NCBI RefSeq assembly: GCF_014467015.1 | Contig: NZ_CP058559.1 | Location: 496,001 to 560,000 of the forward strand | Length of the DNA: 64,000 bases | Direction: 5' to 3' | Source of the DNA: Alkalicella caledoniensis | Lineage (GTDB): Bacteria > Bacillota > Proteinivoracia > Proteinivoracales > Proteinivoracaceae | Shown: piece by piece, positions 47,004 through 51,853 of the stretch | Layout: each line of letters opens with the position of its first letter | Numbering within the stretch: position 1 is the stretch's first letter | Made by a program: the position numbers and the translations under genes | The notes under the pieces: generated by a model | Database searches by the model: none | Told to the model about the DNA's origin: nothing | The model's input: the letters and a program-made list of their open reading frames with translations, nothing else

Positions 47004-47309
47004 ATGGAACTTGAAAGAACTTTTAGAAATATAATGTTAGCTGGTATAGGTTCAGCTGCTATGGCCTATGAAAAAGCCATGGAAACAGTTGATGAAATGG
47101 TAAAAAAAGGCGAATTAACAGTACATCAAGGCAAGGAGCTAAATCAAGAGTTAAAGACAAAACTTATGTCTCAAGGAACTGAAAGCTCAAACCCAAATAT
47201 TACCTTTGATGCAACTAATCTAAATGAAATCTTAGCCCAAGGGAACTTAGCAACAAAGGAAGATATAGAAGATTTAAAAACTAGAATAGAATCTTTAGAG
47301 AATAAATAG
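47004..47309 (+). CDS. phasin-like helical protein
   Basis: The 101 residues are almost wholly helical: a short start (ERTFRNIMLAGIGSAAMAYEKA) followed by KAMETVDEMVKKGELTVHQGKEL, and a C-terminal leucine-rich coiled coil (NLATKEDIEDLKTRIESLE). This matches the PhaF/PhaI-like phasin family as it occurs in Firmicutes, often next to UbiB-type genes. No polyester synthase is nearby, so granule binding is not implied. GGGAGG precedes ATG. The following UbiB gene is 41 bases away. Confidence 0.8.
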   Translation: MELERTFRNIMLAGIGSAAMAYEKAMETVDEMVKKGELTVHQGKELNQELKTKLMSQGTESSNPNITFDATNLNEILAQGNLATKEDIEDLKTRIESLENK

Positions 47310-47350: not shown

Positions 47351-48931
47351 ATGAAAGTCAAAAACAAACGGCAAAGGTTTCGAGAGATTGTTTCAGTTTT
47401 ACTAAAATACGGTTTTAAAGAAGGTATTAACAGTCCTGAACAAATGCGGAAAGCACTTGAGGAATTGGGACCTACCTTTATAAAAATAGGCCAAATACTT
47501 TCAACACGTCCAGATATTCTACCAGATAAATTCACCCGGGAATTTGAAAAGCTTCAAGACGAAGTAAGCCCCGTTAGTATAGAGATAATTGAGAAAATTA
47601 TTATTGATGAACTAGGTGGCCCACTATCCCATCATTTTCAGTTTTTTAGTGAAAAGCCTATTGCTTCCGCTTCTATGGCACAGGTACACAAGGCTACACT
47701 GAAAAGTGGTGCAAGTGTAGTGGTTAAAATCCGAAGGCCAAACATTGAAAGCATTATGCTTAATGATCTAGCTTTACTGAGCAAAGTAACAAGGTTTATA
47801 AAGTTCATCCCACAGGGAAGTATTTTAAACCCACAAGAGATGTTCGCTGAGCTTTATCACGCAGTGAAAGAGGAGCTAGATTTTATAAACGAAGCTGAAA
47901 ATATTAAGACCTTTTCAGCACTTAATAAAGATGTTAGATTTTTGAAGATTCCTAAATTATACCCTGAGTATGTGACAAAGGAATTATTAGTTATGGAGTA
48001 TATAGATGGTTTTAAGATATCTGATAAATACAATCTTTTAAATGCTGGCTATGACCTAAATGATATCGCTAACAAACTAGTTCATAACTTTTTAAAGCAA
48101 GTTTTTAATGATGGCATTTTCCACGGGGACCCACACCCAGGCAATATCTATATAAGCAAGAATAAAATCGCATATCTGGATCTAGGTTTAGTAGGTAAAC
48201 TTTCACCTCAGCTTAAAACTAAGTTTAATCAGCTACTTTTTGCTGTGGTAACCGGTGACATAGAGGCAATCACCCACACAATTCTTAGAATGGGTGTAAA
48301 AAAAGGACCTGTTAATAGAATGGTCCTACAAAGTGACATCGAAGACATCTATAATTACTATGTCAGTGCATCAATGTATGATATAGATATCCCCGAACTA
48401 GTTGATAGATTGTTTGCTGTCTGTAGAGCACATAAAATCTCAGTACCCAAAGAAATAACCTTAATACTTAAGAGTTTTTTACTTATGGAGGGAAACCTAG
48501 CAACACTAGCACCAGAAATTACCATAATGGATATAGCCACCCCCTATGTAAGGGAAGAAATCCTTAAATCTAAAGATGTAAAAGGTGAATTTCTTAAAAG
48601 CGCAGAAAGCATTTATCGCTTTACTAAGGCCACCATGAAAATCCCTGAAAAAATGCTTTCTGTGTTGTCTAAGTTTTCATCTGGAACTATACAAGTACAT
48701 ATGGATCATACCAATTTGGACAATAACGTAAACAAAATAACTAAAGCAGCAGACAGGATAGTCATTGGGTTAATTCTTGCGGCATTGGTCATAGGCTCCT
48801 CTGAAGTCATTTCCTCCCATACGGGCCCTACTTTTTACGATATATCAATACTTGGACTAGTAGGATATATCTTAGCTGCATTATTAGCTTTGTTTTTGGT
48901 TATATCCATTATGCGATCGGGAAGATTATAA
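47351..48931 (+). CDS. ABC1/UbiB/AarF family atypical kinase
   Basis: The 526-residue membrane-linked protein has the UbiB core: KxGQ-like FIKIGQILSTRPD near residues 39-51, the A-rich nucleotide loop PIASASMAQVHKA near 102-114, VVVKIRRP with the ATP Lys near 123, and FHGDPHPGNIYI and AYLDLGLVGKL near 258-285. Two C-terminal membrane helices fill about 470-523. In other bacteria such proteins act in quinone or lipid metabolism as ATPases, but the partner in a clostridium is unknown. The ribosome binding site before ATG is weak, so coupling to the phasin-like gene is likely. Confidence 0.92.
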   Translation: MKVKNKRQRFREIVSVLLKYGFKEGINSPEQMRKALEELGPTFIKIGQILSTRPDILPDKFTREFEKLQDEVSPVSIEIIEKIIIDELGGPLSHHFQFFSEKPIASASMAQVHKATLKSGASVVVKIRRPNIESIMLNDLALLSKVTRFIKFIPQGSILNPQEMFAELYHAVKEELDFINEAENIKTFSALNKDVRFLKIPKLYPEYVTKELLVMEYIDGFKISDKYNLLNAGYDLNDIANKLVHNFLKQVFNDGIFHGDPHPGNIYISKNKIAYLDLGLVGKLSPQLKTKFNQLLFAVVTGDIEAITHTILRMGVKKGPVNRMVLQSDIEDIYNYYVSASMYDIDIPELVDRLFAVCRAHKISVPKEITLILKSFLLMEGNLATLAPEITIMDIATPYVREEILKSKDVKGEFLKSAESIYRFTKATMKIPEKMLSVLSKFSSGTIQVHMDHTNLDNNVNKITKAADRIVIGLILAALVIGSSEVISSHTGPTFYDISILGLVGYILAALLALFLVISIMRSGRL

Positions 48932-49189: not shown

Positions 49190-49810
49190 ATGGATATGCA
49201 ACTGTTGGAAACATATTTATGCAAGCTAAACTCCGTTATTTCAGCTAAAATTGTATTAAGCAACGAGAATGAAATAATTGAGTTACATATATTAGCTGAT
49301 GACAATCGTCACAGCAAGCAAATTTCAAGGGATATTCAATCTTTATTGATATCTAAGTTTGATATGGATATTGATCACAAAAGAATTAGTATAGCGCAAA
49401 TTAAAGGTGAAAAGGTAGACTTGAAGGATTTTAGATTAAAGATCGGCTCCATTGAGTTTTCTACTATTGAAAAAAGAGCTACTGTGAAGGTGGTTTTAGA
49501 AAAGGATGATAAAGTCTTTGAGGGAGTGGCCTCTGGTCCGAATACTTCTTCAAATAGTTTAAAACTTTTAGGTATCGCAAGTTTAAAGGCTGTGGAGCAG
49601 TTTGTTAATTGTCCAAACACCTTTATTTTAGAGGATATTAAAACCTATAATCTAGCAGGAAAAGAATTAATTGTAGTGGGAATTACTTATCTAGACAGTT
49701 CCTCTGAACAGCTTTTATCTGGATCTGCTTATGTTCATAGAGATATAAAAGAAGCGGTGGTTAAGGCAACACTAGATGCAATCAACCGCCCCATGTTAAA
49801 AGCTTTATAA
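49190..49810 (+). CDS. conserved-looking hypothetical protein
   Basis: I do not recognise this 206-residue protein. It has no signal peptide or membrane helix. The N-terminal 75 residues resemble a small alpha/beta domain (LCKLNSVISAKIVLSNENEIIELHILAD). The C-terminal part (about 85-205) alternates strands and helices (STIEKRATVKVVLEKDDKVFEGVASG, then SLKLLGIASLKAVEQFV). It ends in SGSAYVHRDIKEAVVKATLDAINRP, which looks like a dodecin- or dsRNA-binding-like small fold. The start ATG has only a modest GGGCG site. It precedes the peptide/HD-GYP cluster and may lie in the same neighbourhood of function. Confidence 0.75.
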   Translation: MDMQLLETYLCKLNSVISAKIVLSNENEIIELHILADDNRHSKQISRDIQSLLISKFDMDIDHKRISIAQIKGEKVDLKDFRLKIGSIEFSTIEKRATVKVVLEKDDKVFEGVASGPNTSSNSLKLLGIASLKAVEQFVNCPNTFILEDIKTYNLAGKELIVVGITYLDSSSEQLLSGSAYVHRDIKEAVVKATLDAINRPMLKAL

Positions 49811-49815
49811 TTTTG

Positions 49816-49906
49816 CTTATAAGGTCGACTAAATAAATTAAACCTAGCGAAGCGAATATAGCATGCTGCATTAGCGTGACAGCAAAGTACCTATTGTAAG
49901 GGAGGC
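49816..49906 (+). promoter_or_regulatory. foldable leader upstream of the 25-codon peptide gene
   Basis: CTTATAAGGT at 49816-49825 can pair with ACCTATTGTAAG at 49889-49900 (small bulge). An inner stem TGCTG (49865-49869) pairs with CAGCA (49880-49884). A GCGAAGCGAA stretch lies in the loop. The outer stem ends exactly at the GGGAGG ribosome binding site, so folding could control translation. I could not match it to a known riboswitch class. Confidence 0.4.
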
Positions 49907-49915
49907 TATATTCAT

Positions 49916-49993
49916 ATGAAAAAGTTAATCGGTGCTTTAGTAGGATTACTTTCATTAATTTTTGCGAGCAGCGCGAACTTTATGTGGCTTTAA
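49916..49993 (+). CDS. 25-residue secreted or membrane peptide
   Basis: The peptide has a two-Lys start and a hydrophobic core (MKKLIGALVGLLSLIFA), then a short tail SSANFMWL. The first 17-19 residues look like a signal peptide or membrane leader with a possible cut at FAS or SSA. GGGAGG stands 10 bases before ATG. It lies 38 bases upstream of the membrane HD-GYP gene on the same strand and is probably cotranscribed. The size and form recall signal-peptide-derived pheromones and AgrD-like precursors, but there is no Cys for a thiolactone ring. Ser could in principle form a lactone. The function is unknown. Confidence 0.6.
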   Translation: MKKLIGALVGLLSLIFASSANFMWL

Positions 49994-50031
49994 TACCCTA
50001 GTCGGCCTTATTATATACAAGGAGTGTTCTC

Positions 50032-51309
50032 ATGAAAAAAAATAATATGCTGTTGTATATATTCTCTTTAACTTTGCTATCAATTATTCTGTTCTTCTTT
50101 ACATTATCAAAGTATGGAGTAGCCAGTTTCACGTCTCTTTTATTATGGTGTATTTTAATTATAATAACAGACTCTTTGGTAATTGAACTCCCTAATGGTG
50201 TCGGGGTGTCTGTCGGATTAGCTATTACTATAGCGGCAATTTTCACGGCTGGTCCTTTCGTGGGTGCTTTAACGGCTGCCTGTGGAGTTTCTTTTAAGAT
50301 TGTAAAAAATAACACTGGATATTCTCATATTTTTAACACTCCTTATTACAAAACACTATTCAATGCATCTCAATTGTTTATTTCCTCTTCAATTACTGGT
50401 ATAGTTTTTACTACTTTAGGAGGAACGGTTGGAGATCAGAATTTCATATTTAGCCTACCTCCTATTTTATTTAGCTTATTGTGTTATGTGGTTTTAAATA
50501 GCTCTTTCATTGCTGCTTTGTTATTTATTATGTCAGGAGAATCTTTCTTTAAACTCTGGTTCAAGAACCTTAAAGGGTTATTACCCAACACCGCTGGTGT
50601 TGGAACAATAGGTGTCATTATTGCTTTGGCATATATTAGCTATGGTGTGGGAGCAGTACTCCTTTTTTTCGGCCCGTTACTCCTATCAAGATACTCATAT
50701 AAGCTTTACGTAGAACTTCGCCAGACTTACATGGAGACAATCAATGCTCTTAACAAGTCCATGGATGCAAAGGATACTTATACGAGTGGTCATGCTACTA
50801 GGGTCCAAAAATATGCAATGATGTTAGGACAAGCTGCTAAACTTTCATCTAAACAGCTTGATAACCTCAAGACAGCATCTGTTTTACACGATATAGGTAA
50901 AATTGGGATCGATGACTCAATTCTAAATAAGCCTGGGAAGTTAACTGACCAGGAGTTTTCCACTATTCATAAACACCCTATCATAGGGTATGACATTTTA
51001 CGAAACGTTGATTTTCTTAAGGATATAGCGGTAATAATTAAGTACCATCATGAGCGCTATGATGGTAAAGGTTACCCTGATCAGATTAGTGGAAGTGAGA
51101 TTCCTGTGGAGTCCTCAATTATAGCCATTGCTGATACCTTTGATGCCATAACATCTGACAGACCATATAGAAAAAAATTAACCAAGGAGTTTGCTTTAAA
51201 AGAAATAGCAAACAATGCTGGCAGGCAGTTTGAGCCAACACTGGCAAAAACCTTTGTGGAAATAGTGACAAATTACAATGAAGATGAGGAAGCAAGACAT
51301 GTATCTTGA
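50032..51309 (+). CDS. membrane HD-GYP domain protein, probable c-di-GMP phosphodiesterase
   Basis: The 425 residues have an N-terminal membrane domain of about six helices (residues 1-235) without a known sensor fold and then an HD-GYP domain (about 250-420). The catalytic motifs are complete: SGHATRVQKYAMMLG, VLHDIGKIGIDDSILNKPG, HHERYDGKGYPDQISG and IADTFDAITSDRPYR. The membrane part is a good candidate receiver for an outside signal, perhaps the peptide encoded just upstream. AAGGAG precedes ATG. It overlaps the next gene by 11 bases. Confidence 0.92.
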   Translation: MKKNNMLLYIFSLTLLSIILFFFTLSKYGVASFTSLLLWCILIIITDSLVIELPNGVGVSVGLAITIAAIFTAGPFVGALTAACGVSFKIVKNNTGYSHIFNTPYYKTLFNASQLFISSSITGIVFTTLGGTVGDQNFIFSLPPILFSLLCYVVLNSSFIAALLFIMSGESFFKLWFKNLKGLLPNTAGVGTIGVIIALAYISYGVGAVLLFFGPLLLSRYSYKLYVELRQTYMETINALNKSMDAKDTYTSGHATRVQKYAMMLGQAAKLSSKQLDNLKTASVLHDIGKIGIDDSILNKPGKLTDQEFSTIHKHPIIGYDILRNVDFLKDIAVIIKYHHERYDGKGYPDQISGSEIPVESSIIAIADTFDAITSDRPYRKKLTKEFALKEIANNAGRQFEPTLAKTFVEIVTNYNEDEEARHVS

Positions 51310-51853
51310 GCCAGTAATTTCATCACTTCTTGTGGGTAAGTTACGTAAAGGAAGCTTTAAGGATTTATTACTTATTGAACTCAAGGGTTGGTATTTGTTT
51401 GTTGCAGCAGCTCTTACACAGACAATATCTAACATTTTATATACAAAGGGTTCCGGTGTAATTTCAGATTTTTTGATAAGTAGCTTTCTATATGTACACA
51501 TCCTTACATACCTCTTTATATTTATAGGAATCATCATGAATTTCCCTAAAAAATCCATGATATTGCTACTCATCGGAAGCCTACTTAATTTCGCAGTGAT
51601 TACTGCTAACCAAGGAACAATGCCTGTTCAAATGGATGAGTATTCCAAAGTCCACTTTGGAGAAATGGATATCCGCCATAGCCTAGTAACGGATGAAACA
51701 AAACTTTACTATTTAGCTGATATCATTCCAATCCCTAGACCATACCCTCTACCCCAAATCCTGAGCATAGGGGATATATTTATAATATTAGGGGTTTTCA
51801 TGTTTATACAAGAATTGATGGTAACTAAAGTAAAAAGTAGTATTGCCTTATGA
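51299..51853 (+). CDS. DUF5317-like membrane protein
   Basis: The ATG at 51299 has a GAGGAAG site and overlaps the end of the HD-GYP gene, so they are translationally coupled. The 184 residues contain about five membrane helices with the conserved-looking middle LLNFAVITANQGTMPVQMDEYSK and DIIPIPRPYPLPQILSIGDIFIILGVF, which I associate with DUF5317 proteins of clostridia. No enzymatic motif is visible. Its constant company with HD-GYP here suggests a shared membrane process. Confidence 0.78.
   Translation: MYLEPVISSLLVGKLRKGSFKDLLLIELKGWYLFVAAALTQTISNILYTKGSGVISDFLISSFLYVHILTYLFIFIGIIMNFPKKSMILLLIGSLLNFAVITANQGTMPVQMDEYSKVHFGEMDIRHSLVTDETKLYYLADIIPIPRPYPLPQILSIGDIFIILGVFMFIQELMVTKVKSSIAL

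Follow-up and report, generated by a model that had tools for sequence, protein, structure and literature searches.

A locus of Alkalicella caledoniensis raises the question of whether a 25-codon open reading frame (ORF), situated in front of genes for a membrane HD-GYP protein and a DUF5317 protein, is a genuine gene and, if so, which partner its product serves. The locus belongs to a stretch of 64,000 nucleotides (contig NZ_CP058559.1, positions 496,001 to 560,000), hereafter called the window. An original prediction, made from the letters of the window, had proposed that a secreted peptide is sensed or processed by the neighbouring membrane proteins and changes the level of c-di-GMP. The analysis presented here, which relies on comparative genomics, RNA covariation and structure prediction, makes it rather likely that the operon is a peptide signalling system, in which the short C-terminal ‘tail’ of the peptide is the ligand of a membrane domain named MASE9 and the receptor is itself a c-di-GMP phosphodiesterase.

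Organization of the locus

The elements that had been predicted are all present, namely a 25-codon ORF devoid of Cys (49916-49993, MKKLIGALVGLLSLIFASSANFMWL, as read from the window) with a strong ribosome-binding site (Shine-Dalgarno sequence GGGAGG), a gap of 38 nt, the HD-GYP ORF (50032-51309) and a DUF5317 ORF that overlaps it. Their Pfam families score above the cut-offs, with HD_5 (PF13487) at 2.7e-41, MASE9 (PF20972) at 29.1 bits and 1e-6 (curated cut-off 24.3) and DUF5317 (PF17248) at 124.2 bits and 6e-36 (curated cut-off 25). The HD-GYP domain is indeed complete, since its metal ligands (HDxGK) and the HHExxxGxGYP motif are intact in the window and kept in 19 homologues; phosphodiesterase activity is predicted for it. 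DUF5317 keeps the motifs N-x-G-x-M-P, D and S-x-G-D, its AF2 model when folded alone is poor (pLDDT 55), and comparison with homologues suggests that its start is at 51299 and not at 51278.

The three genes were thus correctly described, but the description was incomplete, because a conserved upstream gene and a structured leader RNA also belong to the unit (Table 1). The whole consists of a LeuA_dimer-like gene, the leader RNA, the peptide gene, the MASE9-HD-GYP gene and, usually, the DUF5317 gene. The upstream protein reaches 22.2 bits with the Pfam family LeuA_dimer, under the family cut-off, and a homologue of its gene is found 5′ of the peptide in 114 of the 126 peptide loci, several of the exceptions being at contig ends. 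Further 5′ of the operon, the window carries a gene for a UbiB-like ABC1 kinase (47351-48931), itself preceded by a small coiled-coil-like ORF (47004-47309).

Table 1. Features of the operon, in coordinates of the window
Feature	Position	Strand	Remarks
Upstream cytosolic protein	49190..49810	+	207 aa ORF from TTG 49187; ATG 49190; weakly LeuA_dimer-like
Structured leader RNA	about 49836..49915	+	motif AGCGAAGCG..TAGCG..; Shine-Dalgarno inside fold
Peptide gene, constant part MKKLIGALVGLLSLIFASS	49916..49972	+	begins basic, continues hydrophobic and ends in A-S-S, resembling a cleavage site
Peptide gene, stop codon included: variable tail ANFMWL, putatively the mature signal	49973..49993	+	
MASE9, sensor half of the HD-GYP protein and putative receptor of the peptide	50032..50750	+	PF20972
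HD-GYP catalytic domain (predicted c-di-GMP phosphodiesterase)	50751..51309	+	PF13487; motifs intact
DUF5317 membrane protein, accessory	51299..51853	+	PF17248; overlaps HD-GYP gene

Conservation of the small gene

Among 398 genomes of the phylum, 117 encode DUF5317. Among the 100 of these regions that were examined, about three quarters have an HD-GYP gene directly 5′ of the DUF5317 gene, and most HD-GYP/DUF5317 regions display an ORF of 24-30 codons 5′ of HD-GYP, with the common pattern M..K..LLALxxLVLAGGAxFxW. A peptide profile of 26 rows, including the window peptide, was searched over 396 whole genomes of the phylum irrespective of position. It yielded 73 matches at E<1e-6, one per genome and every one in the same operon context: 65 are within 5 kb upstream of a DUF5317 gene on the same strand, and the remaining 8 have the MASE9-HD-GYP gene as a neighbour, or the conserved upstream gene, or both, and several of these 8 are at contig ends. 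Weak matches elsewhere fall mostly within long ORFs. The window ORF is the sole match in its own genome (E=7e-9, the window peptide having been among the 26 profile rows), which, together with 72 relatives in the same operon context, puts it far beyond chance. The frame is thus kept upstream of homologous loci, and the outcome that would have spoken against the original prediction, an unconserved or broken frame, did not occur. Codon comparison of related pairs (not independent of one another) gave pN/pS values of 0.30 for the constant part of the peptide and 0.42 for the tail, so the amino acid sequence is under purifying selection, the second point on which the original prediction had called for a check. 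On this comparative evidence, the 25-codon ORF is a real gene conserved in >100 bacterial loci.

Exactly one peptide gene is found in each of the 20 genomes (20/20) of the Thermoanaerobacter/Thermoanaerobacterium family. Its holders include Thermoanaerobacter wiegelii, Caldanaerobacter subterraneus, Caloranaerobacter azorensis, Soehngenia longivitae, Symbiobacterium thermophilum and Candidatus Aerophobetes. In the last of these, three loci (L202 136-360, L203 4524-4721 and L207 22-301) carry a tandem double peptide gene before HD-GYP, and the leader motif was not found in the copies checked.

Anatomy of the peptide

Over 113 non-redundant loci, the peptide is composed of a constant part ending in A-x-G, which resembles a signal peptidase site, and a variable aromatic tail mostly of 5-6 residues. 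A K or R occurs within the first 9 residues in 110 loci; position -3 is A or V in 109 and position -1 is G, A or S in all 113. Tails number 5-6 residues at 91 loci and 7-9 at the others; F, Y or W is found in 110, W in 78 and Cys in 3. The peptide family comprises 96 distinct tails, and the same division gives ANFMWL for the window. In the strain of Thermoanaerobacterium saccharolyticum covered by the analysis the tail is ANLQWN, and ANYTWG is a further type. The features of a Sec signal peptide with an SPase I site (basic n-region, hydrophobic h-region and small residues at -3/-1) are thus recognizable, and cleavage is predicted from them. Caution on the export route is nevertheless advisable, given that the peptides of family f21 (L270, L271, L272, L276 and L282, about 1560-1640) have no clear signal sequence. 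They count only 19-20 residues, with the aromatic tail kept, and their hydrophobic part contains basic residues (e.g. VKKVMRIVARLLSGGSNYIW), unlike that of a Sec signal peptide; on their 5′ side, these shortened peptides have the usual leader RNA and upstream gene.

The leader RNA

In most of some 110 loci, the motif AGCGGAGCGG...TAGCGG...AGAG occurs in the interval of ∼100 nt that separates the peptide gene from the first gene. The leader RNA itself is ∼80 nt long, with the Shine-Dalgarno sequence inside or beside a helix. With RNAalifold, no structure was obtained from a first MAFFT alignment of diverse leaders, whereas one is supported in a subset of uniform topology, so that at least two helix arrangements exist. 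An alignment of 15 leaders sharing one topology has changes on both sides in 9 of its 18 pairs, as compared with a mean of 4.7 after shuffling (0/500 shuffles as high), and sliding the helix partners lowers all measures. The leader helices are therefore supported by covariation in relatives. The window leader adopts a second topology, different from that used for modelling, in which GAATATAGC and GCTATATTC pair in a long helix. Covariance model R1, built from single-topology leaders with the window left out, has a match at 49836-49916 (E=5e-4), the sole one in the 64-kb window, and its strong matches in 396 genomes precede the peptide gene, which in family f21 is the shortened form.

Rfam 15 (4227 models) gave no match to the window at E≤5 and none at gathering score to the leaders of 11 relatives, and a known riboswitch was rejected as the identity of the leader on this ground; the leader is an uncatalogued structured RNA. 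CsrA-type regulation was also considered and dropped, as the window copy has no GGA in a hairpin loop. In one relative (L041 4876-4962), a c-di-GMP-I riboswitch (90 bits) is found near this operon on the opposite strand.

The partner of the peptide

The idea that the peptide acts on the membrane proteins of the operon is strongly supported for the HD-GYP protein, namely for its MASE9 half, and fails for DUF5317. The latter was rejected because four genomes of family f81 and genome G035 have the peptide before HD-GYP without an adjoining DUF5317 gene. In G146, G223, G314 and G334, the peptide and HD-GYP genes are together and DUF5317 is elsewhere, and in genomes with two DUF5317 genes the peptide is found only at the copy accompanied by MASE9-HD-GYP. 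Long-type MASE9 proteins (about 560-610 residues) are devoid of a peptide; one of them, a second MASE9 protein in the window's own genome, is a 561-residue ORF outside the window (G000:C1:1372493-1372936). As the peptide stays with the short MASE9-HD-GYP protein and is absent at extra DUF5317 copies and at long MASE9 proteins, the short protein is its partner; about 15 short MASE9-HD-GYP proteins (an estimate by eye) seem to have no peptide.

Two other arrangements deserve mention. In a relative of the window's family (L119 3156-4956), the HD-GYP and DUF5317 frames are fused in a 600-codon ORF, which suggests physical partnership of the two proteins. In Bacilli (L205-L246: Bacillus, Geobacillus and Paenibacillus), a longer HD-GYP protein is encoded 3′ of DUF5317 and not 5′, and no peptide was found at these loci.

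Co-diversification of tail and MASE9

Close relatives with differing tails often have 97-100% identity in the HD-GYP domain but only 56-70% in MASE9. Once HD-GYP identity is accounted for, MASE9 identity and tail distance show a partial correlation of -0.64 (132 pairs, 18 clusters); with tails permuted within clusters, 0/2000 permutations are as low and the mean is -0.23. DNA identities were averaged over one pair per cluster. For different tails (n=14), they amount to 88% in the upstream gene, 92% in the leader, 93% in the constant part, 72% in the tail, 67% in MASE9 and 89% in HD-GYP. The corresponding values for equal tails (n=10) are 83, 90, 91, 94, 83 and 86%, where the tail value is high by selection and the MASE9 value is not. 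The difference ‘MASE9 minus HD’ is -22 points for different tails versus -3 for equal tails (Mann-Whitney p=1.3e-4). DUF5317 and the upstream gene stay conserved between relatives and are not hypervariable; that DUF5317 does not take part in the variability is a further argument against it as the partner of the peptide.

The DNA profiles of individual pairs locate the divergence. Pair L047/L180 shows identities of 96% upstream, 100% in the leader, 96% in the core, 61% in the tail, 49-73% in the MASE9 windows and 92-99% in HD-GYP. Likewise, L252/L102 shows 99% upstream, 99% in the leader, 100% in the core, 53% in the tail and 49-81% in the first seven MASE9 windows, followed by 90-100%. In both pairs, divergence starts within the peptide gene at the boundary of constant part and tail and stops near the MASE9/HD-GYP boundary; same-tail pairs have no such step. 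A single swapped tract would not give what is seen in two other pairs (L298/L303 and L187/L188): the two variable blocks of each are parted by a spacer conserved throughout and by a first MASE9 window in which most of the sequence is kept. Divergence at third positions is raised in MASE9 too, and recombination is therefore probably involved.

Predicted fold of MASE9

The AF2 model of MASE9 is of high quality (pLDDT 94, pTM 0.89). Compared with the PDB by Foldseek, its top 13 matches are all S components of ECF transporters or ECF complexes (prob up to 1.00, best E 0.02), with TM-scores to the target of about 0.6 and sequence identities of about 8-17%, the E-values alone not being significant. 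The best are the S components for riboflavin, biotin, folate and thiamin; a search of a viral structure library gave nothing useful. ECF S components bind small, often aromatic molecules from outside, which makes a MASE9 pocket for an aromatic 5-6-mer plausible.

Proposed mechanism and rival explanations

In the mechanism proposed, the small gene would give rise to a pre-peptide made of the constant, signal-peptide-like part and the short aromatic tail. On the outer side of the membrane, this tail, in the window ANFMWL or something shorter, would be set free or exposed and recognized by the six-helix MASE9 domain, the predicted fold of which resembles vitamin-binding ECF S components. Binding would alter the activity of the attached HD-GYP domain, in either direction, and thereby the c-di-GMP level. 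Tail alleles would differ between lineages, each paired with a MASE9 allele that fits it, much like the specificity groups of Agr. The leader RNA, which holds the ribosome-binding site, may control translation of the peptide, and DUF5317 would have an accessory role. The operon would thus encode an agr-like allelic pair of signal and receptor, the receptor being a c-di-GMP phosphodiesterase controlled by a peptide that is exported, cleaved and bound, and we regard this reading as probable.

The main rival holds that the peptide is never released and is a one-helix membrane micropeptide, the outward tail of which docks in MASE9 on the cell that makes it; the peptide would then serve the phosphodiesterase as a subunit or lock and not as a pheromone. 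The constant part could well be a short transmembrane helix with the tail facing outwards, the f21 versions are unlike Sec signal peptides, and co-variation of tail and MASE9 is expected here as well; however, a plain helix has no need of the nearly invariant A/V at -3 and G/A/S at -1, and allelic diversification among close relatives is more typical of recognition between cells, so this explanation appears unlikely, if worth keeping in mind. Less probable still is that linkage accounts for the pattern, MASE9 being hypervariable for another cause (e.g. recombination or an unrelated ligand) and the adjoining tail codons being swapped along. The tail is only 38 nt from MASE9, a proximity that can inflate their co-variation, and the third-position divergence with its probable recombination fits this view; yet many independent clusters show the onset of divergence within the small gene, close to where core and tail meet, the conserved spacer and MASE9 start separate the two variable blocks of L298/L303 and L187/L188, and same-tail pairs keep MASE9 similar although their HD-GYP DNA has diverged. 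Lastly, the position of the ORF, just 3′ of a structured leader and shortly before the HD-GYP gene, recalls a leader peptide or attenuator translated solely to regulate HD-GYP translation, with a functionless product. Purifying selection on the amino acid sequence, the conserved pattern of the tail and the coupling of tail residues to the MASE9 protein sequence make this very improbable.

If the tail is indeed a released or exposed ligand of MASE9, a one-protein peptide receptor is added to those known, MASE9 gains a class of ligand and an agr-like natural series of alleles becomes available for specificity studies. The 96 candidate signal sequences are named and can be synthesized and tested at once. 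Chances are about even for the broader view of a new class of peptide communication, with linear aromatic pheromones of ∼5-6 residues that are perceived extracellularly through an ECF-S-like receptor attached to a phosphodiesterase of c-di-GMP, lineage-specific signal and receptor alleles and a new leader RNA controlling signal production, present in many families of Bacillota and in at least one other phylum (Aerophobetes).

Comparison with known systems

No published description of a peptide/MASE9-HD-GYP system was found in the literature searched, which comprised few subscription papers and makes absence weak evidence; DUF5317 is mentioned nowhere in it, and the papers listed for MASE9 do not contain that term. 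In the accessible part of a 2022 census (PMC8846402), no peptide receptor or peptide-sensing c-di-GMP enzyme was found.

A close parallel is peptide quorum sensing by agr (AgrBDCA; staphylococci and clostridia), where one hypervariable region spans the peptide and the sensor domain and defines allelic groups (PMC10482373). Both systems have a small peptide gene beside a membrane receptor and a hypervariable region common to signal and sensor domain between conserved flanks, a likeness that implies no membership. As the original prediction stated, the present operon is distinct from Agr: it encodes LeuA_dimer-like, MASE9-HD-GYP and DUF5317 proteins, without AgrB protease, AgrC/histidine kinase or AgrA, and its receptor is an HD-GYP phosphodiesterase. 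Agr pre-peptides contain a Cys or Ser for the (thio)lactone ring and a charged C-terminal recognition part, whereas Cys is lacking in the window peptide and found in only 3/113 tails, and the tail is linear, mostly of 5-6 residues, and C-terminal, with nothing after it.

The ComRS, Rgg-SHP and RRNPP systems are based on small precursor peptides, hydrophobic at the N-terminus, that end in a short and often aromatic signal; Opp brings this signal into the cell, where cytosolic regulators respond to it. The present peptide is similar to ComS/SHP precursors in size and in the character of its tail, but its neighbour and co-diversifying partner is a membrane enzyme. Direct reading of a signal by a c-di-GMP phosphodiesterase, as proposed here, has a precedent in RpfR, which, according to the accessible part of the census, reads the quorum signal BDSF (PMC8846402); there, however, a fatty acid signal and a PAS sensor domain stand in place of the peptide and the MASE9 membrane domain. 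Finally, the predicted MASE9 fold resembles that of ECF S components (RibU, BioY, FolT and ThiT), with the difference that here there is no ECF module and the fold is joined to a signalling enzyme.
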